Part shown: piece by piece, positions 1,851 to 23,004 of the stretch
Layout: each line of letters opens with the position of its first letter
How positions within the stretch are numbered: position 1 is the stretch's first letter
DNA from: Bacteroidales bacterium
Lineage (GTDB): Bacteria > Bacteroidota > Bacteroidia > Bacteroidales > UBA1715
Length of the DNA stretch: 48,084 nucleotides
Direction of reading: 5' to 3'
NCBI GenBank assembly: GCA_027858745.1
Contig: JAQICB010000021.1
Span: 1 to 48,084 of the forward strand
The notes under the pieces: generated by a model
The model's input: only the letters and a program-made list of their open reading frames with translations
Databases searched by the model: none
Told to the model about the DNA's origin: nothing
Made by a program: the position numbers and the translations under genes

Positions 1851-4244
1851 CTATTGAATTATTAATTTTTGCACATACACCTCTTCATCTGTTTGTACTG
1901 AAAGCACATAAACACCTTTCGGCAGTTGTGTTACCATAAGTTCTGCCGTGCCATCAACTATTGGCACTTTCGTTTTCACTACCGACACACCAATACTATT
2001 TATAATTAACACTTGTGCTTCTGTTGATATTTCAGAATCAAAAGAAAGAACAAGAGAGGATGCTGATTGTGTCGGATTGGGAAATACATTCATTTCCGTT
2101 TTGTGTACATACACCAATCCTGTTGGTTTTGGTACAGTAAATGATAAATCCCGACAGCTTGTTTCACCAAACCAGTCTGTTGCAATTATTCGTACATAAT
2201 GCACTCCCGTATCTTGTATCTCCGGGGTTCCGGATAAGGAATGAGTAAATGGCTCAAACGACAACCAATCTGACAAAGGATCTCCGTTCGGTCGTTCTGC
2301 AGAAAATTGTAACACATCATTATTTTCATCAGTAAATCTGTTCAGAGAAACAGAATAATTCAGAGAATACCCAAGATTTATATTAATATTAGACAATGAA
2401 CAATCCGATTCGGGACCAACATTATCGGACTCACCATTATCGGTATATGCTTCAACCTCAAAAAGAGAATAGCCCCATCCGGTAGCTCGCTCATGAAATT
2501 GAATTTTAATATATCGAGCATCTGTTTGAGGTATCACAAAATTATTTACCCCTTGTGCCCCTCTTCCAACAGACATTACCGTATCCCATTGCTGCGCATC
2601 GGTAGACAATAAAATATCATATACATCGCCATATGCTGCTTCCCAATACAAAACGATACGAGAAATGCTGTGTACCGAAAGCATATCAAACTGTATCCAC
2701 TCATCGTCGTTATATGCACTCGACCAGCGTGTTTGCATATCACCATCTGAAGCAGATACTCGTCTGCGTTCCTCATTTTCAGAAGACGAAGCAGACACAA
2801 TACTATATAATAAGTGATTATCAGAATCAACAAGCGAATCACGCACAAGAACATTAAATTGAGTAGATACTGTTTTACCTCCTGTATCAATAGCTTCAAC
2901 AATAAAAGGAATTACGCCGATTGAATCAGCAACAAGATTCAAAGACAGAATAGAATCCTGAAACAAAGAAGGAATTACCGGCCCCTCACCCGAAACAACA
3001 TACGTTAACGGAGTTTCATCTTCAAAAAAATCGTTCAAATTCACATACGCTTCAATCGGATTAGAATTTACATACAAAACCGTATCGGGAATACTTAGAA
3101 TATGCTTTGGTGCATAATTATGATTTGGGTCTCGTGGAATGGTAATAAGCTCCGGATATGTGTTTTGTAAAGAATCCATGACATATCGCATATCACTCAA
3201 ACCACCATGACCGTCATGATTTGTATATGTCCATCCCCAACCGCCGGCATATCCGTTATCAAAAAGAAATGCCAAAGATTCTGTTGCAGAAAGTTCAGAC
3301 GAAGGAGCAAAACCGGCACCATCGTCAATTATTCCATGAGCCGAATACTCACCAATTAATAAAGGTTTATCAAGTTCCCAAAACGTAACCGGATTGTGAA
3401 ACGGTGAATATTTATCACCGGAATATTGTGGATAAAAATGCATCATATAAAAATCGAGCGTACCTGCAGCATCACCACCGGCAGCAATAAGAGCTTCATC
3501 AGAATAATAATTAGTAGAAGAAATTGCTTCTATATCTACCGTTGCTTTTGCATTCCAACTCCCATTCGAAACCTTAGCCTCGGGGTCGGCACGATGGATA
3601 GCTCCGGCACAGCGATTAATAAAACGTTGAATATAGTGAATGTCAACATTTTCAATATGACTCCAATTACCAATAGTCGTCATTCCTTCGGGTTCATTAA
3701 AAATTTCCCAACACAAAATTGCGGTATGTCCGGCAAATCTTTCTACCATAGGAATCAATGCCTTATCAATATATGCTTGTGTAGCTGCCGAATCTTCCAA
3801 CAAAATTCTGTTTTTCGTTAACCGATCCAAAGCAACAGCATCCGACTCTTCATCTTTCTTTGAGTGCATCATATCAAACGACCACAAGCACAGGCTAATA
3901 ACAATCTGATGTTCGGCAGCAATATCTAAAGCTGTTCCCAAATTATTGAGAGCCGTTTCGGAAATCCCAACAATGGTATCATTTTCATACGTAGGCGTAC
4001 TTCGACCGTCTATATGTATCCACCAGCGAACAGAATTACCACCGGCGTCTGACACATTTTGCATAATAGTACGGAACCGCTCCACATCGAAATTTGTGAG
4101 ATCATTCCCAAAATCCATCCACGCAAGATTAATTCCACTCAAAAATATGTCATTCCCCTTATGTTGGATATAATTCTGCGAAAATGCTTGAGATAGAATC
4201 TGGAAAAAAAAGATAGAAAAAAATAGAAACTGTTTCATATACAT
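1851..4244 (-). CDS. Secreted GH5-like glycoside hydrolase with CBM32 and T9SS sorting domain
   Basis: A 797-residue exported enzyme likely to hydrolyse beta-1,4-linked glucan or mannan; the exact substrate cannot be read. A signal peptide covers about residues 1-22 (cleavage near AFSQ; Met3 is an alternative start giving a more typical MKQ leader). The TIM-barrel catalytic domain spans about 24-370, with GINLAWMDFG near the N-terminus, the acid/base Glu184 in FNEP and a probable nucleophile Glu299 in LIGEYS. An Ig/cadherin-like segment follows (about 385-470), then an F5/8 type C (CBM32) carbohydrate-binding domain (about 473-600), a dystroglycan-type cadherin-like domain (about 608-705) and a type-A T9SS C-terminal domain starting near NVFPNP and ending KLIIQ. 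It heads the run leading into the membrane protein and pyrD and diverges from the giant CotH protein gene. Confidence 0.88.
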   Translation of the reverse strand: MYMKQFLFFSIFFFQILSQAFSQNYIQHKGNDIFLSGINLAWMDFGNDLTNFDVERFRTIMQNVSDAGGNSVRWWIHIDGRSTPTYENDTIVGISETALNNLGTALDIAAEHQIVISLCLWSFDMMHSKKDEESDAVALDRLTKNRILLEDSAATQAYIDKALIPMVERFAGHTAILCWEIFNEPEGMTTIGNWSHIENVDIHYIQRFINRCAGAIHRADPEAKVSNGSWNAKATVDIEAISSTNYYSDEALIAAGGDAAGTLDFYMMHFYPQYSGDKYSPFHNPVTFWELDKPLLIGEYSAHGIIDDGAGFAPSSELSATESLAFLFDNGYAGGWGWTYTNHDGHGGLSDMRYVMDSLQNTYPELITIPRDPNHNYAPKHILSIPDTVLYVNSNPIEAYVNLNDFFEDETPLTYVVSGEGPVIPSLFQDSILSLNLVADSIGVIPFIVEAIDTGGKTVSTQFNVLVRDSLVDSDNHLLYSIVSASSSENEERRRVSASDGDMQTRWSSAYNDDEWIQFDMLSVHSISRIVLYWEAAYGDVYDILLSTDAQQWDTVMSVGRGAQGVNNFVIPQTDARYIKIQFHERATGWGYSLFEVEAYTDNGESDNVGPESDCSLSNININLGYSLNYSVSLNRFTDENNDVLQFSAERPNGDPLSDWLSFEPFTHSLSGTPEIQDTGVHYVRIIATDWFGETSCRDLSFTVPKPTGLVYVHKTEMNVFPNPTQSASSLVLSFDSEISTEAQVLIINSIGVSVVKTKVPIVDGTAELMVTQLPKGVYVLSVQTDEEVYVQKLIIQ

Positions 4245-4435: not shown

Positions 4436-7400
4436 ATGAAAAAAATTTTATTCTTAAGTTTAACTATTACATTATCTATATTTCATACACTTAATGCACA
4501 AGTGAAACTAAATGAAATTCAATCAAGCAATGCAACTACAGTAACAAGCGATTTAGGAAACTATGCAGATTGGATAGAATTATACAATACCGGCTCTGCA
4601 ACAGTAGATATTAGTGGCTACTATATAACAGATGATAATGATGAGCCACGAAAATGGCAAGTACCAAGCGGCACAACTATAAGTAGCAACAACCACCTAT
4701 TAATATGGTGTGACGGATTAACTACCGGTCTTCATACAAACTTTAATCTCTCCGGTTCAAAAGGCGAAAAATTATATATCTACTCTTCAAGCATGTTATT
4801 GTTAGACACCGTAACATTTCCTACTCTCACAACAGACTATACATACGGAAGGGTTTTAGACGGAACAGGCGAATGGGCACGATTAGCTTCACCAACTCCC
4901 GACGCACAAAATGATCCGGAAATTATACAAGGTGCTGCTCCTGCCCCCGCATTTTCAATCCCCGCAGGTTTCTATTCTTCGAGTCAAAATGTTGGTATTA
5001 CGAGCTCCGTACCAAACGCGGTGATTCGCTACACAACTGACGGAACCGAACCAACAGAATCTTCTCCCATATATACGGGACCGATTACGGTTGATAAAAC
5101 CACCGATATGACATTAAAATATGGGTACAATCGTGATAACAATACTGGTATACAAGAATATCATTGGGCTGTCGACATAGGATACCCCCCTGTTGGTTAT
5201 TACGACAATGAAAATCAGGAATTTGGGGCTATGATAAAAGCAAAAGCATTTCACGATGATTATTCTCCGAGCAAAACAGCTACTTCTACCTTTTTTATAA
5301 ATATGAGACGTCCGAGTTTACCGATTATTTCAATAACAACAGATAAAGCCGGTTTTTTTAGTGCTGATCAAGGTATTTACATTCAGGGGACAAACGGAGC
5401 AACGGAAACATATGAAGGACAACAATTTACAGCAAACTGGCATCAAGATGATTGGGAACGAAAAGTGTTTGTTGAATATTTTGACGAAAACGGCGAAAAA
5501 CAATTTGGGGTAAATGCCGGTATTCAAACTATGGGTGCTGTCTCTCGAAATTGGGATCAAAAATCTTTAAAAATATCACTCCGTAATGAATATGGCGATT
5601 CAGAGTTAAATTACCCACTTTTTGGTGATGACGGACAAGATTCTTATGACTCATTTTATTTGCGAAACTCCGGAAATGACTGGGAACAAGGGAGTTTAAC
5701 TCGTGATGCAATAATCCAATATATTTTACGTGGAAAAGTAAATTTAGAAACGCAGGCATACAAACCTGTTGTTATGTATCTTAATGGTGAATATTTTGGT
5801 ATCATAAATATGCGAGAACGATACGGTGAAGATCATCTTGCAAACCTCCATGATTTTGTTGACCCGGATGAAGTTGATATACTAAAAATTAATAGCGACG
5901 CTGAAACATTTAATGCTTCTGAAGGAGACTCTACGAGATACTTTGAACTTGTTGATTTTCTAAATTCATTCAGTATGACTGATGAAACGTATTACAATTA
6001 TGTTATTGATAATTATGTTGATAAAGACAATATTATTAATTATTACATCGGACATATTTACTGCCAAAACACCGATTGGCCTGGAAATAACACACGTTTA
6101 TGGCGACCACGTATGCAAAAAGGAAAATTTAGATTTCTTTTTTATGATACCGACTTCGGATATGGTTTATGGGGAGGTGGACCATCTGCTAATAATTTAT
6201 CACGCACGTTGTCGTCAAGTGAAGATCATGCATGGGCTACTATTGTAATTAGAAGTCTGATGGAAAACCCAACATTTGAAAGTGAATTCATTCAACGATT
6301 TAGTTATATGATTAACACTATCTATACTCAAGATAGATTAGAAAGCATTGCTAACAGTTTTGAAAATACTATTGCAAACGAACGTGACAATTACAGTGAT
6401 GAAGAGTGGACAAGAAGTGTGTCTGCCTACGGCTATAATGTTAACGATATGATTTCCTGGGGCATTGATCGTATTGGTTATATGCGCGATCAAATCAATT
6501 CCGAATTCGGTAATGAAGGATACTCATACCTCACGGTGAATTTTACTGAGAGTAATGGGTCGGTATATCTCTGTTCTCTCCCGGTTGAGGCAGGATATTC
6601 GGGTAGACAATACGAAAACACTCCCATTAGGCTTGTTGCTGAGGCAAAAGACGGATATCAATTTGTGCGATGGAAAAGTGGTTCAACAACCCTTTCTACC
6701 GAGCAAGAATATTTTTTAACTATCACCGGTGATTACACAATAGAAGCAGAATTTGAATCACGAACGCCTGTTACCGGAATTCACATAAACGAAATAATGG
6801 CTTCGAACAGTCTGTTTTTCAATAACGAATTAAATGAATATGAGGATTGGATAGAAATATACAATCCGGGAACTTCAGATATTGATTTAGCAGGATTGTA
6901 CATAAGCGACCGCTTAGATAGTCTCGATAAACACAAAATCCAATACGGTTCTCCGGAACTTACAACTGTTCCAGCCGGTGGTTATTTAATATTATGGGCA
7001 GATAAACAAACTCACGCCGGGGCGAATCACCTTAATTTCAACCTCGCTCGCACCGGAGAATCGGTAGTTATTTCTCAAATTAACGCAAGTGGTACAACAA
7101 CAATTATTGATCAGATAACGTATGGAGTGCAAAACATCAATCTTTCTTTCGGTCGTTATCCTGATGGTTCTTCGAACCAAATTGTTTTTGATATACCAAC
7201 TCCCGACGCTTCAAATCAAATTCAAAGTACTGCTGAAATTGACGGTTTAGTAATTACCGAATGTATGGCAAAAAATGCACAAACAATTACCGAAGAAACC
7301 GGTGGGTATGCTGATTGGATTGAAATATATAACAGTACCGATGAAGCAATTAACATCGGTGGCTTATTTGTGACCAATGATTTAGGCGATTTAAACAAAT

Positions 7401-10400
7401 ATATGATTCCGGCAAACCAACCATCTCTTACAACAATTCAACCTAGTGAATATTATATACTTTGGGCAGACGAACAAATTGCAATCAACCCAAATCACGT
7501 TGGTTTCAAACTCAAAGCAGAGTTTGGCGATATTGCTATCGTGCAATTACGCGGATCTGAAAATTATATAATTGACCAAGTTTCATACGCTAATCAAGGT
7601 GAGGATATTGCATATGGAAGGTTTCCGTCTACCACATCTGGATTCCGATATTTACCCACTCCCACTCCGGGTGACCCCAACTCTAACAATGCAACTATAA
7701 GTATTAAAACCGGGTTAACTATCAATGAACTCTTAGCTGCGAATACATCTATTGTAAAAACCGAATACAATAAATATTCTGATTATATTGAATTCTATAA
7801 CGCCTCTTCCACTCCTATTGACTTAGGTGGTTTATTTGTGAGCGATTCGCTTTCGTATAGTCTAAAATACCGCATTCCGCGAAATAATTCTGCTGAAACA
7901 ACTGTTCAGCCCGGCGAATGGATTACATTCTGGGCAAACAGTTCTCCCGAAAATGGCAGTATGCATTTAGACTTCGGACTTGATGTTCTCGGAGAAGAAG
8001 TGGTGCTTTCTCAAGTTACCGAAAATGGCATTCAACAACTTGACTATATAATATTTGAAGCACAAACACAAAATATCAGTTACGGTCGTTTTCCCGAAAC
8101 AACTGATAATTGGGAGTTGATGACGCCAACATATAATGCGGAAAATCAATCGACCTCTGCAAGTACGAGTTTAGCTACGCTTACTACCAGTATTGGAGAA
8201 ATTTCACCATCATATTCAAACACGGTTTCTCATTACATTTGCTACTTACCACAAGGCACCTCAAATCCTCCGGTAATTTCGGCAACACCAATGAACGAAA
8301 ATGCTTCTCTTACTATTACACAAGCAACTTCTCTCAGCGAACAAGCAACAGTCGATATAATATCAGCTGATGGTAACAATACGGCAACGTACACCGTAAG
8401 CTTCGAATTAGCACCATCTGATGATGCTACACTTTCTGTTCTATCAACTGACTATGGCACATTAAGCCCGGTTTTTTCACCAAGCATAAACACGTATACA
8501 ATAGACCTTCCGTCACCAATTATTCCTTTGCTTACCGCTCAAGCAAATCAAGAAAATGCATCGGTTGAAATTAATTATGGAAGCTCTATAGAAAATACAA
8601 CTTCCATAACCGTTACCGCTGAATCCGGAAATACAAATACTTATTTTATTTCGTACAACTCTCAAACACAAAATGAAATAATTTATAGTTGGGTAGATGA
8701 TTTCAATAATGGCAGCACAAGCGAATGGGATATTAGCGGTTCAAGTACTGATTTTTACGCAATCACCGCAACAAACGGAGAAATAAACCTTTCTCAAGCA
8801 GCAGAAAAAACAACATACAGAACGGTTACATATACTTTACCGGCAGGTTTTGTATTAGATATGGAAAATAATCCAAATCCGGTTTTATCGCTTGATGTAT
8901 ATGCTTCCGAAGACTCTGAAATACGGATTGACCTTAAAGATATTAATAGCACGACCGGAAATTCCGAAACAATAAGTCACACCGTAACAGGTGGCACCAC
9001 AGAAACTTTAATGTTTGATTATGACGGCGTAAACACCGGAGCAGATGAATCTCAAATAAACACTATTGTTTTTTACACTGACCCGGATGATTATATTGCC
9101 GACGAAAAAGAATTCATTTTTGATAATTTAACTATTGGTATTCCTTTATCAGCAAATGCTGATTTAGCTTCGCTTAGCTCAAATATTGGCACATTATCTC
9201 CAACATTTAGTGCAAACACAACCGAATATTCACTCACAATTCCTCATAATACGACAACAATTCCTACAATTTCCGCAAATGCCGATGATGTAAATGCTCT
9301 TGTTGAAATCAGTCAGGCATCTTCGGTAACCGGAGAAGCTACAATTAGAGTTACAGCTGAAAATAATACCACGCAAACATATACGGTAACAATTGAACGT
9401 GAATTAGAAATTGTTGAAGGATATGTCGAAAACATTATACAACCAAATCTAGCAGGATTCAGTGAATCAAATGCAACCTACGAATTAATATACGGCGGTG
9501 GATACGCAGAAATCTCATATAATCGTTCGGAAACAAGTGGTAACGATAGTTTTATATATAACATTTCAGAAGCTGATGCAAAAATCTTAAATCTCTCTAA
9601 TTACCCCTATGTTGCCATTCGTGCTCGAACAACCACACTTACAGACATGCGTATTGATTTGTTTGACGGGAACGAATATGTAAGCACCGAAACACCTGTC
9701 TCAGTGACTGTTAACGGCCCCGAATACACCACATATGTGTATAATTTTGCAAATAAACTTGCTGCAAATCTTACGGTAGAAGATATTCGAGGCATAAAAA
9801 TATACTTTGATAAAGATGTGACTACTGTTAATTCAGGCTCTGTGTTCTTCGATAAAATTATGTTTGGCAGCGAGGTTGATATGTTAATCAATCACCCGCC
9901 TGTTATTTCAACTATCCCTAACCAGACACAAATGCGGGGAGAAACGTTTAGTAACATTTTACTCGACAATTATGTGAGTGATGATAATACATCTGATGGC
10001 TCGTTAATATGGTCTCATTCAAGTTCAACAGCTTTTGCACTGTCAATATCATCATCTCATGCCTTAAGCATTACCCCTCTCGATTCTGAATGGATGGGAA
10101 GTGAAGAGATCACATTAACCGTTGCAGATACAGAGGGAGAATCCTCATCAATAACTATTACCATTTCTGTTACAGAATTACAAATTCCGGCTGAAAGTGT
10201 TACGTTTACACAAACATCTATTAGTTTAGATCAAGAACAAACACGTGACTTGCATACGTATTTGACCATTTATCCGGAAACTGCCACAATTGAAAGTATA
10301 ATTTGGTCTGTTGATAATCCAAATATTTCTATTACAGAAAACGGCATCATTTCACATTCTCTTGAATTTGGAAGCGAATCAGGTACTATCAGTGTTACGG

Positions 10401-13400
10401 TTCTCGACAAATCAGGTAATGAATACATACAAACAATGGTTGTAGTAATTACCGGGTGCCCAATACATTTAGAAACAGTAACATTAAGTCCCTCACTAGC
10501 AACGGTAACCGAAGAGCAAACACTGCAATTATCTCCTGTTTTGTACCCTACCGATGCGTGTATTCAAAACATCTCATATTCTTCTGATGAGGAAACTATT
10601 GCTACAGTTTCGGAAACTGGTTTAGTAAGTGGATTAATTCCGGGAACAGCTATTATAACTATTTCTATTAATGACGGTTTTTCAACAATTACCAGCACAC
10701 GAACAGTTACGGTAGAAAAAGATTGTTCGGGAGATATTAGCCTATCGATAAACAAAGAAATAACAGATATAATTGAAACATATACAGAAACGCTCATTGC
10801 AAACATTAGCCCCGATGATGAATGTACGGAAAATAATGTGATAATATGGGAAAGTCTTGACACAGATTATGCTACCGTAAATTCAAATGGTATTGTTTCT
10901 GCAATAGCTGAAGGAACAGCACGTATAGTAGCATCGACAACAGGCAACGGCATTACGTCTGACACATGTATTGTGAACGTTCTCAAAGATTGTTACTATG
11001 GCACAGTAACCGTAACCTTAGATTTAGAAACTGAATCTATTCTTACTAATAGTGGTACTACCCTTACCTACTCTATTTCTCATCCGGATGCCTGTAATAG
11101 CGGAGTAACATGGGAATCAACAGAGGAAACTATTGCAACAGTGGATGAAAATGGAGAAGTTTCTGCGATAAATATTGGTGAAACTTATATTATTTGTCGT
11201 AGTGTTCAATCTCCAGAAATGGCAGATACCTGTATTCTAAGTGTTGAAGAACGCCTACCGACATCTATCGAATTACCAAGCACTCTCACGGTATATGATG
11301 ATGAAAATGTAAGCATTACCGCGACCGTTCTTCCCGAAAATGCTGACAATAAAAATATAACTTGGGAAACGCTCAATCAGGATATAATTTCTCTCACTCA
11401 AACAGGAGATATGACCGCTTTAGAAGTTGGTACCGATACTATTCGGGTAACATCTCTTGCTGACCCGTCAATTTATGCTGAATGTATTGTAACCATTTTA
11501 CCGGTTGAAGCAGATACTATCATCATTACTCCCGATACCCTTGAATTATTTGTATATGATGAAAGCAGTCTTTCTGTAACTTTTGAACCAATAAACACAA
11601 CGAATCAATCGATTGTATGGTCGATTGCAAATACAGATATTGCGACACTATCAGAAGGAACAATTACTGCTGTTTCTGCCGGCGAAACTATTATCACCGC
11701 AATAGCAAGTAATGGTGCATATTCAGAAGCAGTGGTAATTGTATCAGACATTGAACCAACCGACATTCTGCTTTCTGAAACAAGTCTTTCATTATTCCCC
11801 GAAGAAATTGCAACTCTTTCGGTATTATTTACACCATTAAATACGACTGACACTCTTGTTTCATGGACATCAAACAATACTGATATTGCTACGGTTTCTG
11901 AGGGTATTGTCACCAGCCATTCTGTGGGAGAAACAATTATTACCGTAACAACAAACAATGGTTTAGAACAAACATGTGATGTGACTGTATCTCCTGTTAT
12001 TGCTGAATCTATCACATTAAACACACACGAAGTATCACTAATAATTGATGATACACAACAATTAATAGGTGCTATTTCGCCAGATAACACGACAGACCAA
12101 ACAATTTCTTGGCATTCCGAAAATGAAACAATTGCAACAGTAGACGAAACAGGATTAGTTACGGCACATAATGTTGGGCAAACAGAAATCATTACAACAA
12201 CTCACAATAACCTTACTGACACATGTATTGTCTATGTGGAAGAAACTGTAATTGAAGTTGATAGTGTTGTATTAAGCGATGAAAATCTTTCCATTTTATT
12301 ACTTAGTTCGGGTTCTTTATCTGCTGAAATTTATCCTTTTGACGCATCAAACAAAACGGTCATTTGGAAAAGTGCAAACACCAATATTGCAACTGTTTCA
12401 CAATCCGGTACAATTACGCCACAACAAACAGGTGAAACATATATTGTTGCTACTACCTCAAACAATCTTACCGATACTTGTTTTATAACAATTCAACCAA
12501 ACCCGATTACGACTATTTCATTGAGTCAATCAACAATAGATTTAGCTCAAAATGCATCGAGTAACCTCGAACAATTTATTGTGATTGAACCCTCTGAAGC
12601 AGAAATTAGCTCAATAAATTGGTCAACAGAATCAGATAACATCACCTTAGATGCAAACGGTATGGTTTCCAATCTTGTTGATTTTGGTACAGAAACAGCA
12701 ATCGTTACTCTTGTCGTAAGTGACACATACACCAATGAGTTTACTGAAACAATAACCCTAAACCTTACCGGATGTGCGACCGAACTTACTTCAGTAACTC
12801 TTTCGCCGGCAGCAACAACAATAGTTGAAGGGGGAACACTCCAACTGAGCCCCACACATGCTCCAACAAACGCATGTATTAAATTTACAACCTACGAAAG
12901 CTTAAACGAAACAGTAGCGAGCATTTCTCAAACAGGATTAATCACTGCTCACCTAACGGGTGAAACAACAATCGAAGTAACAGTTTCTGATGGGTTTAAT
13001 ACCTATTCCGATTCATTTATCCTCACAGTTGAAAAAGACTGTTCAGGAGATATTGAATTGTCATTATCGGAAACGTCATATACAATTACACGGGGATTTT
13101 CGTTCACATTAACAACAACAATAATTCCCGATGACGAATGTACAACTGACAACGTAATTACATGGATCAGTTCGAACCCTGAAATTGCGAGTGTTGAAAA
13201 TGGAGTTGTTTCTGCTCACGAAACAGGAACAACAACAATTACCGCATCAACAGATGGCACTGGTATTACTGTCGCAACTTGCGAAGTAACCGTAATTTCC
13301 GATTGTTTCGAGGGAACCGTTTCAATTGAAGCAAGTACAGATTCCATATCGCTCTACAAAACCGAAACGGCTCTAAGCTCCGCAAATATAATTCCAACAG

Positions 13401-16387
13401 AAGCATGTGACGCTTCTGTAACTTGGACATCAAGCAATACTGAAATTGCAACAGTAAACGATGGAACAATCACTGCTCTTTCTACATTTGGAGAATGCTA
13501 TATTATTTGCTCAAGCAATCAATCTCCTGAAATTACAGATACAATTGTTGTTTCGGTAATTGAACGACTCCCTTCTTCGGTTTCACTTACCGAAACACTT
13601 AATATCTATATTGAAGATGAAACAATACTCACAGCGACAATTGAACCAATAAATGCCGACGACAAATCACTCACTTGGACAAGTTCCAATCTTAGCATTG
13701 TCGGTATCGATGCATCGGGTACAATTATCGGCAACTCTATTGGAACAGCAACGATTACAGCAACAACAATAAATAATATATCTGCTTCATGCGAAGTAAC
13801 GGTCTTACCAATACCGGCAAGTTCATTTTCATTATCAGAATCTGTTGCATCAATATTTGTGTATGATGAGCTCCAATTAAACGGAACTATTCTACCCGAC
13901 AACACTACGAATACAACTATTTCGTGGTCTAGTTCAGATTCGAATATTGCAACGGTAGATGAAAACGGTAAGGTTACCGGGATTTCTTCCGGACAAACAA
14001 CAATTACAGCACGAACACATAATGATAAACTTGCTGAATGCATTGTTACCGTAAAAGATATTCAACCAACACATATTACATTAGAAATTGGTCTCGACTC
14101 TATGAATGTTAATACGACACAAACAATCAATGTTACATTTGACCCCGAAAATACGACAGCACGAGAAATCGAATGGTCAACCAGTAATGTTAATCTTGCA
14201 ACGGTAAATGACTTAGGTCAGATTACCGCATTACAACCCGGCACCGTTATTTTTACAGCTACAACCAGTAATGACATTTCACAAGAAATTTCAATTGTGG
14301 TACGACCAATTGAAACAGAATCTATCAGTCTTAACACCACTGCGGTTAACATTCGCATTTCCGAAAACCAACAATTAATTGCAAGCATTTATCCGGAAAA
14401 CACAACCGATAAAACAATTACATGGACATCAGCTGACACAAGTATTGCCACAGTAAACAATTCCGGAAAAATTCTTGGAAAATCAATAGGAACAACAGGT
14501 ATTACGGCAACAACAGCTAACGGAAAAACAGCTACCTGTAACGTTACTGTTCGTTTAAATACCATTTCTGTTGACGAAGTGATAATAAGTCAAGATTTTA
14601 TTGATATGTTCCCAGATGCAAGTCATCAAGTTTCCGCTGAAATTGTTCCCGACAATGCTACCAACAAAACAATAGTGTGGTCAAGTAACAAAATTTCAGT
14701 TGCCACTGTAGACCAAAACGGAGTTATTACTTCTGTAAGCCCGGGAACAGCGTTAGTTATAGCAACGGCATCAAACGGAATTGCAGACACCTGTACCGTT
14801 ACCGTCATGCCAATTTACGCAGACAGTATTATTATATCGACACAAGCTATTACTCTTTCGATTAATGAATCGCAAGAAATAACAGCCGAAATTTATCCGG
14901 AAAATGCCACTCAAAAAACAATTTTTTGGTCAGTAGAAAATACCGATATCGCAAGTGTTTCAACAAATGGAACATTAACCGGAAATAATATTGGCGCAAC
15001 AGAATTATATGCTCAAACATTAAACGGTTCCATCGATACCTGTATAGTTACCATTATTGAAGTTTCTATTCCGGCAGACAGTATCCATGTTTCTCCTACC
15101 GAATCGAATATTGATGTTGATGAAACAATTACAGCTCTCGTAACATTTTATCCCGAAGCAACCACAAATAAAACAATAACGTGGACTTCTAATGATGAAA
15201 ATATTGCAAGCGTTAATCAATACGCAAAAATTACAGGTGTAAACACCGGAACAACAATTATTCGTGCAAAATCAGCAAATAACAAAACAGCAGAAATTCA
15301 CATAACAGTTAACGAATTATTTGCATCATCTATCGAACTCGAAGCATCATCTCTCATTTTTGAACCGGGACAAACACATACAATTGGTGCAACTATTTCG
15401 CCTATTAAAACCACAAACAAAACAATAACATGGACAAGCGAAAATGAAGAAATTGCAAGGGTTAACGAATTTGGTCTCATCACGGCTGTTTCGCCCGGAA
15501 CTACGCTCATTACTGCAACAACATCAAACGAATTAACAACATCCTGCGAAATAACAGTTACCGAAATCTATCCTACAGAGATATCTATTATTCCTCCGGA
15601 CAAAACAACTATTTTAATTGACGAAACACTGCAATTGAATGTTGAATACACGCCGACTTCAACAACTGCAACTGGATTACTTTGGTCAAGTTCAAATACA
15701 GATATTGCAACAGTCAATGAATTTGGTGAAGTAACCGGAATAAATGAAGGTGTTGTTACTATAAATGTAAGTTCCGAAATTTATCAGAATGTTAATACTT
15801 CAATAAACATAAGCGTTTCTATTTATAACGAAGCTCCTGTTGTTACCGACATTCCTCCACAAGTCATTTTAATTGGCGAAGAATTCCCGATTATCAATTT
15901 GAATGACTATTTCACAGATGATAACACATCTGCAAATAACATAAGATGGTCGGCAAACACTCCCGGAGTAATAAGCCTTCAAATTAACAGTAATGGTGAT
16001 GTTACCGCAACATGCACTCAAGAAGGATGGCTCGGAAGCGAAACAATTACAATTCGAGCAAAAGACGAACATGGGTTAATAACATCGTATCCGGTAATAT
16101 ATACAATTTCTGACGGTACTGCGATACACTCTGTTTCTTTACAAACCATACGGGTTTACCCGAACCCAAGCACGGGAATATTTACTCTTGCATTTGAAAC
16201 CGTGTCGGAAGGAAACTACACAATTCAATTAATATCACCCGAAGGGAAAACTGTGTTTGCAGAAAAAAGCTTTGTGTTAGGTTCGTATTCTCATAGATTT
16301 ACCAACAATTCATTAGCAAAAGGAATATATACCATTAGAATACAACACAAAAAACAGAGTATAACTCGACATATACTTATACAGTAA
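4436..16387 (+). CDS. Giant T9SS surface protein with lamin-tail, CotH kinase, cadherin-like and 22 Ig-like domains
   Basis: A 3983-residue exported protein, probably a surface adhesin or substrate-binding scaffold. Domains in order (approximate residues): signal peptide 1-21; lamin-tail domain (LTD) 23-158; chitobiase C-terminal-like region 165-289; CotH kinase-like domain 293-690, with the NTDWPGNN motif (Asp547) and the YDTD motif (Asp571, Asp573), so it may bind ATP and phosphorylate; InlB-type repeat 696-775; LTDs at 782-920, 937-1085 and 1093-1235; cadherin-like beta-sandwich domains at 1245-1325, 1327-1407 and 1574-1658, alternating with two jelly-roll-like modules (1415-1570, 1662-1815); a cadherin/dystroglycan-like domain 1819-1916; 22 Big_2 Ig-like domains 1917-3797; a second cadherin/dystroglycan-like domain 3798-3895; and a type-A T9SS sorting domain ending HILIQ. 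It sits between a GH5-like and a GH9 gene, which suggests a role in polysaccharide attachment. Domain identities are solid; the function is inferred. Confidence 0.9.
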   Translation: MKKILFLSLTITLSIFHTLNAQVKLNEIQSSNATTVTSDLGNYADWIELYNTGSATVDISGYYITDDNDEPRKWQVPSGTTISSNNHLLIWCDGLTTGLHTNFNLSGSKGEKLYIYSSSMLLLDTVTFPTLTTDYTYGRVLDGTGEWARLASPTPDAQNDPEIIQGAAPAPAFSIPAGFYSSSQNVGITSSVPNAVIRYTTDGTEPTESSPIYTGPITVDKTTDMTLKYGYNRDNNTGIQEYHWAVDIGYPPVGYYDNENQEFGAMIKAKAFHDDYSPSKTATSTFFINMRRPSLPIISITTDKAGFFSADQGIYIQGTNGATETYEGQQFTANWHQDDWERKVFVEYFDENGEKQFGVNAGIQTMGAVSRNWDQKSLKISLRNEYGDSELNYPLFGDDGQDSYDSFYLRNSGNDWEQGSLTRDAIIQYILRGKVNLETQAYKPVVMYLNGEYFGIINMRERYGEDHLANLHDFVDPDEVDILKINSDAETFNASEGDSTRYFELVDFLNSFSMTDETYYNYVIDNYVDKDNIINYYIGHIYCQNTDWPGNNTRLWRPRMQKGKFRFLFYDTDFGYGLWGGGPSANNLSRTLSSSEDHAWATIVIRSLMENPTFESEFIQRFSYMINTIYTQDRLESIANSFENTIANERDNYSDEEWTRSVSAYGYNVNDMISWGIDRIGYMRDQINSEFGNEGYSYLTVNFTESNGSVYLCSLPVEAGYSGRQYENTPIRLVAEAKDGYQFVRWKSGSTTLSTEQEYFLTITGDYTIEAEFESRTPVTGIHINEIMASNSLFFNNELNEYEDWIEIYNPGTSDIDLAGLYISDRLDSLDKHKIQYGSPELTTVPAGGYLILWADKQTHAGANHLNFNLARTGESVVISQINASGTTTIIDQITYGVQNINLSFGRYPDGSSNQIVFDIPTPDASNQIQSTAEIDGLVITECMAKNAQTITEETGGYADWIEIYNSTDEAINIGGLFVTNDLGDLNKYMIPANQPSLTTIQPSEYYILWADEQIAINPNHVGFKLKAEFGDIAIVQLRGSENYIIDQVSYANQGEDIAYGRFPSTTSGFRYLPTPTPGDPNSNNATISIKTGLTINELLAANTSIVKTEYNKYSDYIEFYNASSTPIDLGGLFVSDSLSYSLKYRIPRNNSAETTVQPGEWITFWANSSPENGSMHLDFGLDVLGEEVVLSQVTENGIQQLDYIIFEAQTQNISYGRFPETTDNWELMTPTYNAENQSTSASTSLATLTTSIGEISPSYSNTVSHYICYLPQGTSNPPVISATPMNENASLTITQATSLSEQATVDIISADGNNTATYTVSFELAPSDDATLSVLSTDYGTLSPVFSPSINTYTIDLPSPIIPLLTAQANQENASVEINYGSSIENTTSITVTAESGNTNTYFISYNSQTQNEIIYSWVDDFNNGSTSEWDISGSSTDFYAITATNGEINLSQAAEKTTYRTVTYTLPAGFVLDMENNPNPVLSLDVYASEDSEIRIDLKDINSTTGNSETISHTVTGGTTETLMFDYDGVNTGADESQINTIVFYTDPDDYIADEKEFIFDNLTIGIPLSANADLASLSSNIGTLSPTFSANTTEYSLTIPHNTTTIPTISANADDVNALVEISQASSVTGEATIRVTAENNTTQTYTVTIERELEIVEGYVENIIQPNLAGFSESNATYELIYGGGYAEISYNRSETSGNDSFIYNISEADAKILNLSNYPYVAIRARTTTLTDMRIDLFDGNEYVSTETPVSVTVNGPEYTTYVYNFANKLAANLTVEDIRGIKIYFDKDVTTVNSGSVFFDKIMFGSEVDMLINHPPVISTIPNQTQMRGETFSNILLDNYVSDDNTSDGSLIWSHSSSTAFALSISSSHALSITPLDSEWMGSEEITLTVADTEGESSSITITISVTELQIPAESVTFTQTSISLDQEQTRDLHTYLTIYPETATIESIIWSVDNPNISITENGIISHSLEFGSESGTISVTVLDKSGNEYIQTMVVVITGCPIHLETVTLSPSLATVTEEQTLQLSPVLYPTDACIQNISYSSDEETIATVSETGLVSGLIPGTAIITISINDGFSTITSTRTVTVEKDCSGDISLSINKEITDIIETYTETLIANISPDDECTENNVIIWESLDTDYATVNSNGIVSAIAEGTARIVASTTGNGITSDTCIVNVLKDCYYGTVTVTLDLETESILTNSGTTLTYSISHPDACNSGVTWESTEETIATVDENGEVSAINIGETYIICRSVQSPEMADTCILSVEERLPTSIELPSTLTVYDDENVSITATVLPENADNKNITWETLNQDIISLTQTGDMTALEVGTDTIRVTSLADPSIYAECIVTILPVEADTIIITPDTLELFVYDESSLSVTFEPINTTNQSIVWSIANTDIATLSEGTITAVSAGETIITAIASNGAYSEAVVIVSDIEPTDILLSETSLSLFPEEIATLSVLFTPLNTTDTLVSWTSNNTDIATVSEGIVTSHSVGETIITVTTNNGLEQTCDVTVSPVIAESITLNTHEVSLIIDDTQQLIGAISPDNTTDQTISWHSENETIATVDETGLVTAHNVGQTEIITTTHNNLTDTCIVYVEETVIEVDSVVLSDENLSILLLSSGSLSAEIYPFDASNKTVIWKSANTNIATVSQSGTITPQQTGETYIVATTSNNLTDTCFITIQPNPITTISLSQSTIDLAQNASSNLEQFIVIEPSEAEISSINWSTESDNITLDANGMVSNLVDFGTETAIVTLVVSDTYTNEFTETITLNLTGCATELTSVTLSPAATTIVEGGTLQLSPTHAPTNACIKFTTYESLNETVASISQTGLITAHLTGETTIEVTVSDGFNTYSDSFILTVEKDCSGDIELSLSETSYTITRGFSFTLTTTIIPDDECTTDNVITWISSNPEIASVENGVVSAHETGTTTITASTDGTGITVATCEVTVISDCFEGTVSIEASTDSISLYKTETALSSANIIPTEACDASVTWTSSNTEIATVNDGTITALSTFGECYIICSSNQSPEITDTIVVSVIERLPSSVSLTETLNIYIEDETILTATIEPINADDKSLTWTSSNLSIVGIDASGTIIGNSIGTATITATTINNISASCEVTVLPIPASSFSLSESVASIFVYDELQLNGTILPDNTTNTTISWSSSDSNIATVDENGKVTGISSGQTTITARTHNDKLAECIVTVKDIQPTHITLEIGLDSMNVNTTQTINVTFDPENTTAREIEWSTSNVNLATVNDLGQITALQPGTVIFTATTSNDISQEISIVVRPIETESISLNTTAVNIRISENQQLIASIYPENTTDKTITWTSADTSIATVNNSGKILGKSIGTTGITATTANGKTATCNVTVRLNTISVDEVIISQDFIDMFPDASHQVSAEIVPDNATNKTIVWSSNKISVATVDQNGVITSVSPGTALVIATASNGIADTCTVTVMPIYADSIIISTQAITLSINESQEITAEIYPENATQKTIFWSVENTDIASVSTNGTLTGNNIGATELYAQTLNGSIDTCIVTIIEVSIPADSIHVSPTESNIDVDETITALVTFYPEATTNKTITWTSNDENIASVNQYAKITGVNTGTTIIRAKSANNKTAEIHITVNELFASSIELEASSLIFEPGQTHTIGATISPIKTTNKTITWTSENEEIARVNEFGLITAVSPGTTLITATTSNELTTSCEITVTEIYPTEISIIPPDKTTILIDETLQLNVEYTPTSTTATGLLWSSSNTDIATVNEFGEVTGINEGVVTINVSSEIYQNVNTSINISVSIYNEAPVVTDIPPQVILIGEEFPIINLNDYFTDDNTSANNIRWSANTPGVISLQINSNGDVTATCTQEGWLGSETITIRAKDEHGLITSYPVIYTISDGTAIHSVSLQTIRVYPNPSTGIFTLAFETVSEGNYTIQLISPEGKTVFAEKSFVLGSYSHRFTNNSLAKGIYTIRIQHKKQSITRHILIQ
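10184..12502 (+). repeat. Nine-domain Ig-like block, first copy (within the giant protein gene)
   Basis: Residues 1917-2689 contain nine Big_2 domains. The block aligns domain for domain with residues 2690-3460: TGC, EKDCSGDI, ERLP, VYDE, DIEPT and ESITLNT here correspond to TGC, EKDCSGDI, ERLP, VYDE, DIQPT and ESISLNT there, at a constant offset of about 2313-2319 nt. The first domain of each block is the long variant, and domains 2-4 carry paired Cys. Confidence 0.85.
12503..14815 (+). repeat. Nine-domain Ig-like block, second copy (within the giant protein gene)
   Basis: Residues 2690-3460 are the diverged tandem duplicate of 1917-2689. The duplicated unit is a whole set of nine domains, not a single Ig domain, since block-specific linkers and Cys positions recur in the same order. 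Domain 9 of this block runs into four further Big_2 domains. Confidence 0.85.
14816..15826 (+). repeat. Four terminal Ig-like (Big_2) domains outside the nine-domain blocks
   Basis: Residues 3461-3797 hold four more Big_2 domains, each with the ITW(T/S)S-type strand and IA-V motif. They do not continue the block register. They are followed by the second cadherin/dystroglycan-like domain and the sorting domain. Confidence 0.8.
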
Positions 16388-16409
16388 AAAAATAATTTTA
16401 CAAAAACGA

Positions 16410-16441
16410 GGGTATTTCATTGTTTGAAATACCCTTTTTTG
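16410..16441 (+). terminator. Rho-independent terminator after the giant protein gene
   Basis: A perfect 10-bp stem, GGGTATTTCA (16410-16419) with TGAAATACCC (16425-16434), loop TTGTT, followed by seven T. It lies 23 nt past the stop codon and separates the giant gene from the GH9 gene. Confidence 0.9.
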
Positions 16442-16514: not shown

Positions 16515-18437
16515 ATGAAACAATTACTATTTATAATTTCACTCGCCATGGTATACAGTTGTAACACTAAAAAAATCAACACAGAAGATATTGTAAACAC
16601 AGGAACATATATTGTTATCGATCAATTTGGCTATCTGCCCGAATCCGAAAAAATTGCAGTCATCCGTTGTCCCGAAATCGGATTTGATGCCGAAGAGACG
16701 TACACTCCTGGAAACACCTTCACAGTTATTAATGCAGAAACTAATACTGAAATTTTTTCGGACACAATTAGCTCATGGAAAAATGGAGATATTGATTCAA
16801 CATCAGGCGATAAAGTGTGGTACTTTGATTTTTCTAAACTCACAGAAAATGGCAGTTATTATATTCTAGACAAAGAAAACAACTATGCTTCATATCCTTT
16901 TTCTATTTCAGAAGATGTGTACAAAAACACCTTAAAACATGCGTTCCGCACGTTTTTCTACCAACGTGCCGGCTTTACAAAAGAAGCACAATATGCAGGC
17001 GAAGGCTGGGCAGATAGTGCCAGTCATGTCGGAAAAGGACAAGACACCGAATGTCGAAATTTTTTAGATAAAGATAACCCGGCAACAGAAAAAGATGTAC
17101 ACGGAGGATGGTACGATGCCGGTGATTATAATAAATATACAAACTGGACTGCCGATTATATTCATTACTTATTACTTGCCTACGAAGAAAATCCGAAAGC
17201 ATGGACAGACGACTTTAATATTCCTGAATCGGGCAATGGCATTCCCGACATTATTGATGAAGTAAAATTCGGACTCGAACATTTACTTCGTTTGCAATTT
17301 GATGATGGTAGTTTAATTGCCGTTGTCGGTGTTTCTCACGGCTGCCCCCCATCGGCTGCTCAAGACTCAAGCTTTTGGGGCGGACCAAGCACCTCGGCAA
17401 GCCTTTCGGGAGCAATGGCATATGCATACGGTGCAAAAGTGTTGAAAGAATTTGATGCAGATTTTGCTCAAAAACTAGAAATTGCAGCAAAAAAAGCATG
17501 GGATTGGGCTGACAAAAATCCAAAAGTGCTGTTTTACAACAATAGTGCTGAACATGGCACCCAAGGTTTAGCAGCAGGACAGCAAGAAGTTGATGATTTA
17601 GCACGAATCGAGAAAAAAATTCATGCAGCAATGCGATTGTACGACCTCACCAAAGACAAAAAATACCAACAATTCTTTGAAGAAAATTATTCGAAAGCAC
17701 GTATGATTGAATGGCAATTAGTATATCCATTCGGCGAAGCTAATCAGGATATGCTCTTATACTACTCAAAACTTCCGTATGCAAATAAAGAAATAGCATC
17801 TCAAATACAATCTATCTACAAAAAAGGTCTAGATACTATTTATAATCTATTTGCAATTCGCGACCAAAACGATGCATATTTTGCCTACCAAAAAGATTAT
17901 GTATGGGGTTCTAACGGTACTAAGTCAAAACAAGGAAATATCTATTACAATCTTATTACCTACGATATTTCGCCAAAAACTGAAATTTCAACCAATTATA
18001 AAAATCTAGCTGCGCGATATATTCATTACTTACACGGAGTTAATCCACTTAATTTTTGCTATTTAACAAACATGAACTCTCGAGGTGCAACCAACAGCGT
18101 TACAGAAGTATACCACGAATGGTTCCAAGAAGGATCAGAAAAATGGGATAAAGCGGGTGTTTCAACATATGGCCCCGCACCGGGATTCCTTGTCGGAGGT
18201 CCAAATCCGGCGTACTCATGGGATGGGTGTTGCCCGGACGATTGTGACAGTGAAGAAAATAATGCAAAATGTTTTGAGCTCGATGTTTCAGTTATTACCA
18301 ACCAACCGGCATTGAAATCATTTATGGATTTTAACCACGGATGGCCATTAAATTCATGGGCAATTACCGAAAATAGTTGTGGCTATCAAGTGCAATATTT
18401 ACGTCTGCTTTCAAAATTTGTTGCAGATTCAAAATAA
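16515..18437 (+). CDS. GH9 endoglucanase-type lipoprotein
   Basis: A 640-residue family 9 glycoside hydrolase that should cleave beta-1,4-glucan (cellulose or related) by inversion. The N-terminus is a lipoprotein signal with lipobox VYSC (Cys16), so it is membrane anchored and, unlike its two large neighbours, has no T9SS sorting domain. Residues about 30-130 form the CelD_N-type Ig-like domain (VIDQFGYLP motif), followed by the (alpha/alpha)6 barrel. The motif GGWYDAGDYNKYT carries Asp201 and Asp204 (catalytic base region). The C-terminal signature ends SWAITENS, with Glu619 as the proton donor, and the HGVNPLNFCY and NSRGATNS segments are typical. The gene has its own terminator downstream and is separated from the giant gene by another. 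Active-site residues appear intact. Confidence 0.93.
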   Translation: MKQLLFIISLAMVYSCNTKKINTEDIVNTGTYIVIDQFGYLPESEKIAVIRCPEIGFDAEETYTPGNTFTVINAETNTEIFSDTISSWKNGDIDSTSGDKVWYFDFSKLTENGSYYILDKENNYASYPFSISEDVYKNTLKHAFRTFFYQRAGFTKEAQYAGEGWADSASHVGKGQDTECRNFLDKDNPATEKDVHGGWYDAGDYNKYTNWTADYIHYLLLAYEENPKAWTDDFNIPESGNGIPDIIDEVKFGLEHLLRLQFDDGSLIAVVGVSHGCPPSAAQDSSFWGGPSTSASLSGAMAYAYGAKVLKEFDADFAQKLEIAAKKAWDWADKNPKVLFYNNSAEHGTQGLAAGQQEVDDLARIEKKIHAAMRLYDLTKDKKYQQFFEENYSKARMIEWQLVYPFGEANQDMLLYYSKLPYANKEIASQIQSIYKKGLDTIYNLFAIRDQNDAYFAYQKDYVWGSNGTKSKQGNIYYNLITYDISPKTEISTNYKNLAARYIHYLHGVNPLNFCYLTNMNSRGATNSVTEVYHEWFQEGSEKWDKAGVSTYGPAPGFLVGGPNPAYSWDGCCPDDCDSEENNAKCFELDVSVITNQPALKSFMDFNHGWPLNSWAITENSCGYQVQYLRLLSKFVADSK

Positions 18438-20409: not shown

Positions 20410-23004
20410 TTACTGTCCTTCAGAAAATTTATGAATAAACCCACTCAAAATACGTGGTTGAAGTGTGCAGTCTTGCCAATATTCGTACACATCACAAACA
20501 TAGTAAAATACCCCATCGGGTAAATTTTTCTGTGTTCTTTGGTGTAATCCTTTCCAATTCAATTCCGGGTCTTTTGTTTCAAAAACTAAATCACCCCAAC
20601 TGTTATATATTTTCATATCAACTTTTTGTACATATTTGTTCTGTGCAGGAACATATATTTCATTCTCACCATCATTATTTGGCGTGAAAATATTTGGCAA
20701 AATATACACCGGGCAGGTATACAAGCAGGTATCGGTATTTTTTTCACTTTCATTTCCTACATTATCGACACTTGTTACATAATAGCAGGAGGACATGGTT
20801 GCGTCTTGTTCCGAAAAAGCATGAACATACCTCCGAGCATCATACGGAACTTCTTCCAATAAATTAAAAGAATCCATAGCACACGAACGGTAATAGATTC
20901 TCACATTCACAATATCAGTAGAAAGAGAATCCCATTCTATTGTATGGGTAAAATTCTCACAACTTTGTGTAACAGAAAAGGAAATAGGTTTTGGCGGCAC
21001 AGTATCTATGGGTTGCGCACACATTATTTGTGATGAATTATATACTCGTTTGGGTAATTGTTCCGATTCGAAATACCCGGACGTTCTTACATAATAACAA
21101 TACTCCTGTAAATTAACTAAAGCGGAATCTCGAAATACATTGTTTTGAAAAATACCGAGAGAATCAAATCCACCAAGAGAATCCTGACGATACACAAAAA
21201 CGGTATCATTTTCCCAACTCACATGGGTTTCTACATGCAATTCCAAAAACGAATCTCCGGCACCTAATGATAGTAAGGGTGACGACGAAATTGGTGAGGA
21301 TGATACAAAAACTAAACTATCAGCCACACGCGAATACATATCTACCCGATACGAATACGGATACAATTTTGAACACACTGACTTATCATAAAAAACAGTA
21401 TCGGTATTGTCGGTAACATGAAGAATTTCGGTAAAATTATCAGTCGAAAAACCTTCTGCTCGCAGTAATGAATATTCGTAGGGTTTCGGATATAACAGGG
21501 TATCAATATCACGAGGAATTGTCCATGTAACCATTATTTCACCATCATCGCAGGAAGTGTTTTCGACACTCACATTCGTTATGACGGGCGTTACAGGTTC
21601 AACCGTAACACAGGTTTCATCGGAAATATAGCTCGACACAGTATCTGTTTTGTACACAGAAAACAGGCGGTAACAGTACGTAAAGCCCGGGCTCACCCCC
21701 CAATCATCATAGGTGTCGATAAAGCTTGAGTCCCCATTTGACGCACTTCCCACAAAGGTGTAATCCTCAGATAATTCTGCGGGCATACCATATTCACAAT
21801 ATGACGGGGTATACAATATTGGTTTTTTACTTCGATAAACATCATACCTCATTACAACATTATTACTATCATTATCGGTCCATTCCACACTATTTGTATT
21901 ATCTGCATAATCAACAGATAATTGCTTTGAAGGGTGACCAATAACAGTAATATTAAGATATTGTAATGCCGACAAAGAAACATCTGCTCCGGCATCAGTT
22001 GCCTTAAAAACAACAGTATACGGTTGCTTCCGCACTTCCGAAGCTCCGGGAACCCAAACAAAATCAGTTGTAACAGAACCGGAACCGGAAGTATTTGTAA
22101 ACTGAGCCACGTTGTGTGTAGCTTCCAGAGGACCTCCACGAGCAGTTAGTTGCATATAATCGCCATCAGGATCAGTTGCGGAAACGCTTACTCGCACTGT
22201 ATCATCGGCACGCACACACACATCAGAAAGGGGGGTAAAAACCGGGACACGATTATCTGTTTCAAAAACTTCTATCTGAATATCACGTGCAACATACCCA
22301 ATTTTAATCCCGTTACGCCATTCCTCTATGTGCATTGCAACATTATAACTACCAACAGCAATTGGAGCATCCCAAATCAAATCACCATTAACAGAATCAA
22401 CTCGCAACTCATTACTAGCAGCCGGAAAGGTATAATTGGGTATTTCTTCTCCATGAGCACCGCGACACACAGCCAAAGAATACGAAAGGCTGTCTCCGTC
22501 AACATCATAAGCAGCTGGATTATGTACAAATCGCTGTCCCAAAGCAGCCTTATCGACCGGCGGATTCAATAGGATTGGCGTACTATTACCACCCAAAACA
22601 GGATCGATTTTTATCGTTGTAGAAATTGAAAAAGGAATATTTACCGAATCAAATATATTTTTAATTCCCGAATTTCTATTAGGGTCTTCCATAACAATTT
22701 TGTAAACTCCGGGGCCGGGAAACGTATGTGTCGCAACATACGTGTTTTTTGTATAGTTGTCGGGCAAATAATTTATAGTTGCTCGTTGCACAAAACTTGT
22801 TGTTCCATCGCCCCACTCAACCGGCAACTGTCCTCTGTATTCATTCGCAGCACTCGGAGTATAGGTATAGGTAACGATAGTAACTTCGTAAGTGTACGCT
22901 GAAATTTGTTTGTACGTAATCTCCCCTGCTCTATTATGCGTTGCATACGCAAATTGAGTACATAATAGACAAAGAAATACAGTACCAAAAAAAAATTTCA
23001 TCAT
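20410..23004 (-). CDS. T9SS type-B sorting-domain protein, gliding-motility associated family
   Basis: An 864-residue exported surface protein. A signal peptide covers about residues 1-21 (ending FAYA), followed by THNRAGEITY, a typical start for this Bacteroidota family. An Ig/PKD-like region follows (GDGTTS, ATHTFPGPGVYKI, then SLSYSLAVCRG), then several FN3/Ig-like modules. The C-terminal ~95 residues (from VYILPNIFTPNNDGENE, with NSWGDLVFE and DGVFYYVCDVY) are the type-B T9SS sorting domain first described in SprB-like gliding adhesins. The mature protein is likely on the cell surface; ligand unknown. Its ATG overlaps the stop of the DUF6702-like gene (ATGA), so the two are translationally coupled. 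Confidence 0.88.
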   Translation of the reverse strand: MMKFFFGTVFLCLLCTQFAYATHNRAGEITYKQISAYTYEVTIVTYTYTPSAANEYRGQLPVEWGDGTTSFVQRATINYLPDNYTKNTYVATHTFPGPGVYKIVMEDPNRNSGIKNIFDSVNIPFSISTTIKIDPVLGGNSTPILLNPPVDKAALGQRFVHNPAAYDVDGDSLSYSLAVCRGAHGEEIPNYTFPAASNELRVDSVNGDLIWDAPIAVGSYNVAMHIEEWRNGIKIGYVARDIQIEVFETDNRVPVFTPLSDVCVRADDTVRVSVSATDPDGDYMQLTARGGPLEATHNVAQFTNTSGSGSVTTDFVWVPGASEVRKQPYTVVFKATDAGADVSLSALQYLNITVIGHPSKQLSVDYADNTNSVEWTDNDSNNVVMRYDVYRSKKPILYTPSYCEYGMPAELSEDYTFVGSASNGDSSFIDTYDDWGVSPGFTYCYRLFSVYKTDTVSSYISDETCVTVEPVTPVITNVSVENTSCDDGEIMVTWTIPRDIDTLLYPKPYEYSLLRAEGFSTDNFTEILHVTDNTDTVFYDKSVCSKLYPYSYRVDMYSRVADSLVFVSSSPISSSPLLSLGAGDSFLELHVETHVSWENDTVFVYRQDSLGGFDSLGIFQNNVFRDSALVNLQEYCYYVRTSGYFESEQLPKRVYNSSQIMCAQPIDTVPPKPISFSVTQSCENFTHTIEWDSLSTDIVNVRIYYRSCAMDSFNLLEEVPYDARRYVHAFSEQDATMSSCYYVTSVDNVGNESEKNTDTCLYTCPVYILPNIFTPNNDGENEIYVPAQNKYVQKVDMKIYNSWGDLVFETKDPELNWKGLHQRTQKNLPDGVFYYVCDVYEYWQDCTLQPRILSGFIHKFSEGQ

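Follow-up and report, generated by a model that had tools for sequence, protein, structure and literature searches.

CotH of Bacillus (5JD9/5JDA; B. subtilis CotH) is a spore-coat protein kinase for CotB and CotG, and the D228Q and D251A variants of B. subtilis CotH are catalytically inactive (PMC7821199). CotH proteins have also been described from C. thermocellum; the cellulosomal Cthe_0239 has the order LTD-LTD-Fn3-CotH (LTD, lamin-tail domain), and the locus tag of CseP (Cthe_0044) is adjacent to that of Cel9N (Cthe_0043) (PMC6083626). Among 80 loci compared here, which come from Bacteroidota, Marinimicrobia, KSB1, Ignavibacteria and Calditrichota, the commonest architecture is a protein of about 1180 aa with an LTD-CotH-LTD order and a tail for the type IX secretion system (T9SS). 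This compact type is widespread yet apparently unstudied; in the literature searched, a single paper, on an unrelated subject, mentions both CotH and type IX secretion. The CotH ligands of Mucorales also expose the CotH fold on the surface, beyond spore coats, as is proposed below for a giant bacterial protein. The Mucorales proteins are eukaryotic and, to our knowledge, have neither a T9SS tail nor an Ig stalk of the giant type.

The window (the whole stretch of DNA analysed, 48,084 nucleotides) contains a giant CotH gene at 4436-16387 on the forward strand, which reads as a single unbroken ATG frame of 3983 residues. The features of this gene and its surroundings are as follows.

1851..4244 (-): divergent neighbour, GH5 endo-mannanase-like, with an F5/8C (CBM32-like) domain and a T9SS tail
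4436..16387 (+): giant LTD-CotH-Big_2-T9SS protein, 3983 aa; single ATG frame, same-family orthologues 13/13
4436..4498 (+): predicted Sec signal peptide (MKKILFLSLTITLSIFHTLNA-Q), read from the sequence
4493..4825 (+): LTD 1, residues 20-130 (Pfam, orthologue-trained profile, model match to lamin tail)
4961..5293 (+): CHB_HEX_C_1 / Fn3_assoc domain, residues 176-286 (Pfam)
5312..6535 (+): CotH kinase-fold domain, residues 293-700, Pfam core 363-682 (Pfam, model, profiles)
6068..6091 (+): NTDWPGNN, residues 545-552; D547 corresponds to B. subtilis CotH D228, N552 to a conserved Asn
6143..6154 (+): YDTD, residues 570-573; D571 aligns to B. subtilis CotH D251
6596..6760 (+): divergent InlB B-repeat domain (Flg_new_2), residues 721-775 (Pfam)
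6770..8068 (+): LTD 2, 3 and 4, residues 779-900, 934-1054 and 1091-1211 (Pfam, orthologue-trained profile)
8099..10189 (+): cadherin-like beta sandwiches, two jelly-roll (CBM-like) modules and Big_9, residues 1222-1918
10187..15778 (+): 22 Big_2 Ig-like domains, residues 1918-3781 (Pfam, orthologue-trained profile)
16154..16381 (+): T9SS type A C-terminal sorting domain (Pfam, NCBIfam)
16408..16436 (+): terminator-like hairpin directly 3' of the giant gene
16515..18437 (+): downstream neighbour, a lipoprotein of the CelD_N-GH9 endoglucanase type; its lipobox, VYSC, was read from the sequence

The source genome is a draft of 169 contigs, and the giant might therefore be an assembly or annotation artefact that fuses separate genes. 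However, an orthologue was found in all 13 other same-family genomes searched, matching 94-100% of the query at 37-55% identity. Eleven of these are complete or nearly so (3665-3972 aa, including 3972 aa in G002), and two are interrupted by contig ends. The full-length copies come from independent assemblies and have an identical domain order; every complete copy carries 4 LTDs and 18-22 Big_2 domains. The chance of an artefact is thus negligible, and misassembly of the frame was rejected. The uninterrupted frame reported in the initial annotation was borne out by these orthologues of near-equal length.

The domain layout proposed in the same annotation was largely recovered. Four LTDs (PF00932) gave 156 bits in all; the LTD1 model resembles lamin tail structures (TM up to 0.66, to 3jt0), and LTD3 and LTD4 are the most conserved modules of the giant, with 66% and 62% identity to the orthologues. 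The CHB_HEX_C_1 match covers residues 176-229 and the Fn3_assoc match 187-286. The Big_2 domains were found by Pfam as 20 stretches (618.9 bits), whereas the orthologue-trained profile gave the 22 domains and 4 LTDs originally counted; at a looser threshold the same profile adds one weak Big_2 stretch. The Big_2 region is strongly acidic, with a net charge of -199. Two further Ig (Big_9) domains exceed the Pfam cut-offs. The cadherin-like and jelly-roll modules were confirmed in part: one cadherin-like domain lies above the PF12733 cut-off and the remaining copies are weaker, while the two jelly-roll modules matched no Pfam family and no PDB sequence. General O-glycosylation by the D[ST][AILVMT] motif was rejected, as the motif is depleted (14 vs 24 expected). 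In the window (10187-15778), Big_2 domains nine positions apart are unusually similar (0.37 vs an average of about 0.30; 0.44 vs 0.34 in G002). This suggests that a nine-domain block might have been duplicated in the lineage with 22 Big_2 domains; the periodicity was not seen in the 18-domain orthologues.

The C-terminal sorting domain was recognised both by Pfam (Por_Secre_tail, PF18962, residues 3907-3982; 40.0 bits, cut-off 27) and by NCBIfam (TIGR04183; 33.8 bits, cut-off 23), which confirms type A. The genome encodes a T9SS translocon gene (SprA_N, E 1.1e-156) and has 54 Por_Secre_tail matches. Together with the predicted signal peptide, also noted earlier, display of the giant on the surface via the T9SS is well supported at the sequence level, and the protein is presumably anchored there. 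Another gene in the window (20410-23004, -) encodes a protein of 864 aa in which a T9SS type B sorting domain (CHU_C) is the only domain recognised.

The CotH domain (PF08757, residues 363-682) scored 138.2 bits against a cut-off of 23.8. An AlphaFold model covering residues 1-795 (mean pLDDT 86) most closely resembled 5JDA, the CotH of B. cereus with Mg/AMP bound (E 3.9e-11; TM 0.74, normalised by target length). A direct phmmer search of the CotH region against the PDB gave no match, and neither did a profile built from the near relatives; a broader 20-sequence bridging profile matched 5JD9 at 1e-36. In the bridging-profile alignment, the Bacillus motifs FDGFVHN and PWDYD fall onto NTDWPGNN and YDTD. 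Within the Bacillus chain, 23 positions separate the two Asp residues, the same distance as from D228 to D251, and these catalytic residues align with D547 and D571. The suggestion that the aspartates of the two motifs lie on the active site of a CotH fold therefore held in profile, model and alignment. Bacillus CotH shares this fold; however, it has no LTDs, Ig stalk or T9SS export.

The active-site set includes K376, E461, N545, D547, N552, D571 and D573. In an alignment of 33 divergent sequences, all seven positions belong to the 20 columns, out of 403, that never vary (hypergeometric p about 2e-10, which is approximate because the set was chosen with the alignment in view). All seven are kept in 14/14 giants and in 16/16 other CotHs of the family. 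Among 60 order-wide homologues, which as high-scoring matches are somewhat biased toward conservation, D547 and D571 were each found in 58 and N552 in 60. Because the active-site residues are retained almost universally, the comparison favours a catalytic head.

A serious rival is that the head binds: the CotH fold, LTDs and CBM-like modules would let the bacterium adhere to plant fibre or to another cell, with catalysis vestigial or minor. A long Ig stalk with a distal head is the typical build of adhesins. The jelly-roll model is weakly similar to surface glycan-binding proteins and carbohydrate-binding modules; since the TM-scores are low for this multi-domain model (pTM 0.51), carbohydrate binding is only suggested. 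CotH proteins of Mucorales were reported as GRP78 virulence ligands (PMC12211043). The catalytic Asp has been lost in some long LTD-CotH relatives, so the wider family includes members with a non-catalytic role. Phage proteins found in a viral fold search also carry CotH-like folds and are uninformative as to function. On the other hand, the seven positions are invariant in the giants although the CotH domain averages 54% identity. ATP is scarce outside cells, which counts against a kinase; this problem and the adhesin-like anatomy keep alive the binding head, which we regard as somewhat less likely than a catalytic one.

The relatives that lost the Asp are two LTD-CotH proteins of 3187 and 3205 aa (L150 1838-11401 and L151 3691-13308), in which SNRSW or ANKSW replaces NxDW. 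They have other repeat modules instead of Big_2 domains, are independent of the giants, and from their sequences are candidate natural pseudokinases.

The giant is confined to the six family members sampled among 393 genomes of the order, and the CotH score drops from 652 to 335 bits on leaving the family. When 84,980 species were scanned, the top 13 matches were all same-family MAGs, whose record titles indicate herbivore gut or faeces, bioreactors and other anaerobic isolates; the next match was 40% identical and only 1174 aa long. In the tree, the giant CotH domains form a single clade (support 1.0). The compact LTD-CotH-LTD-T9SS proteins have the head architecture, sorting signal and active site in common with the giants; whereas they have no Big_2 stalk, usually a single LTD past CotH, and fall outside the giant clade. 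A CotH on an Ig stalk at a Gram-negative surface had been called unusual. A search for the LTD-CotH-Big_2-T9SS architecture showed this to be true of the stalk, as 18-22 Ig domains occur only in one family, but not of surface CotH itself, since a CotH match of the giant's type is present in 132/393 genomes of the order. What is new is the stalked form, specific to the family, together with its hydrolase neighbours; it is a variant and not a separate category. A CotH protein of Halalkalibacterium ligniniphilum (Bacillota; L138) has two Big_2 domains and adjoins VTC and DUF4956 genes.

Plant-polysaccharide hydrolases (GH5 mannanase, GH9, GH74 or GH5-CBM4_9) adjoin the giant in 11/14 genomes, the window counted. 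The GH5 neighbour upstream matches 2c0h (1.4e-43) and is kept beside 8 of the 12 assessable giants, again with the window. Downstream, the orthologue loci often carry a GH74 xyloglucanase (6p2l, 2.5e-174), and in G007 a GH5-CBM4_9 takes this place. No hydrolase neighbour was found in the other three genomes (G001, G004 and G009; one was seen on one side only). Co-transcription of the giant with GH9 in an operon is not supported because the terminator-like hairpin separates the two genes. The C. thermocellum CotH proteins are similar in the LTD-Fn3-CotH order, the plant-fibre setting and a CotH near GH9 (PMC6083626); however, they are cellulosomal, Gram-positive and far smaller. The giant has a T9SS tail instead, and no dockerin was found among its Pfam matches.

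The source genome contains three additional CotH genes. One paralogue (1318 aa, three LTDs, T9SS tail; L035 4191-11038, G000:C106) lies in an operon-like same-strand run with a CarboxypepD_reg-like protein, a VTC polyphosphate-polymerase domain, DUF4956 and DUF2490. This run bears on a further alternative, in which the CotH head transfers a group other than ATP phosphate, for example AMP, or phosphate from VTC-made polyphosphate. Other chemistries are already known among proteins with a kinase fold. Outside the family CotH and VTC co-occur (18 genomes with both, 8 with CotH only, 3 with VTC only and 17 with neither; Fisher p 3e-4, per genome and with kinship ignored), and CotH was reported with a polyphosphate polymerase and DUF4956 in Pel clusters (PMC7112168). 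The giant gene itself has no VTC neighbour, however, and such a chemistry seems improbable here. CotH and VTC genes also lie close together in several genomes of the order.

The preferred reading, to which we give a probability of roughly 45%, is that the giant is a T9SS surface protein, made by a fibre-degrading family of Bacteroidales, with a competent CotH head, which would phosphorylate co-secreted fibre-degrading or adhesion proteins. The sorting domain would carry the protein across the outer membrane and fix it on the surface. The 22 Big_2 domains, with the cadherin-like and Big_9 domains, might form an extended acidic stalk bearing the two CBM-like jelly-roll modules. At its tip would be the head, composed of LTD, Fn3-associated, CotH and InlB-like domains and three LTDs, in which the LTDs may act as docking modules. 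The CotH domain would most likely modify Ser/Thr on co-secreted surface proteins, for instance adhesins or the hydrolases encoded nearby; this would take place before export, in the periplasm, or else at the surface. We know of no phosphate donor for T9SS cargo, which counts against a kinase, and we identified no substrate with Ser/Lys/Arg repeats comparable to CotB or CotG. A broader outer-surface (or periplasmic) phosphorylation system of Bacteroidota, in which T9SS-displayed CotH kinases (on an Ig stalk in the present case) modify the fibre-degrading machinery from a non-classical phosphate source, is regarded as doubtful.

If the head is active, the giant would be an anchored extracellular kinase linked to the breakdown of fibre in digesters and in the guts of herbivores. 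It would then become possible to test directly for protein phosphorylation on the outside of Gram-negative bacteria, and the compact relatives, present in about a third of the order's sampled genomes, would generalise this biology.
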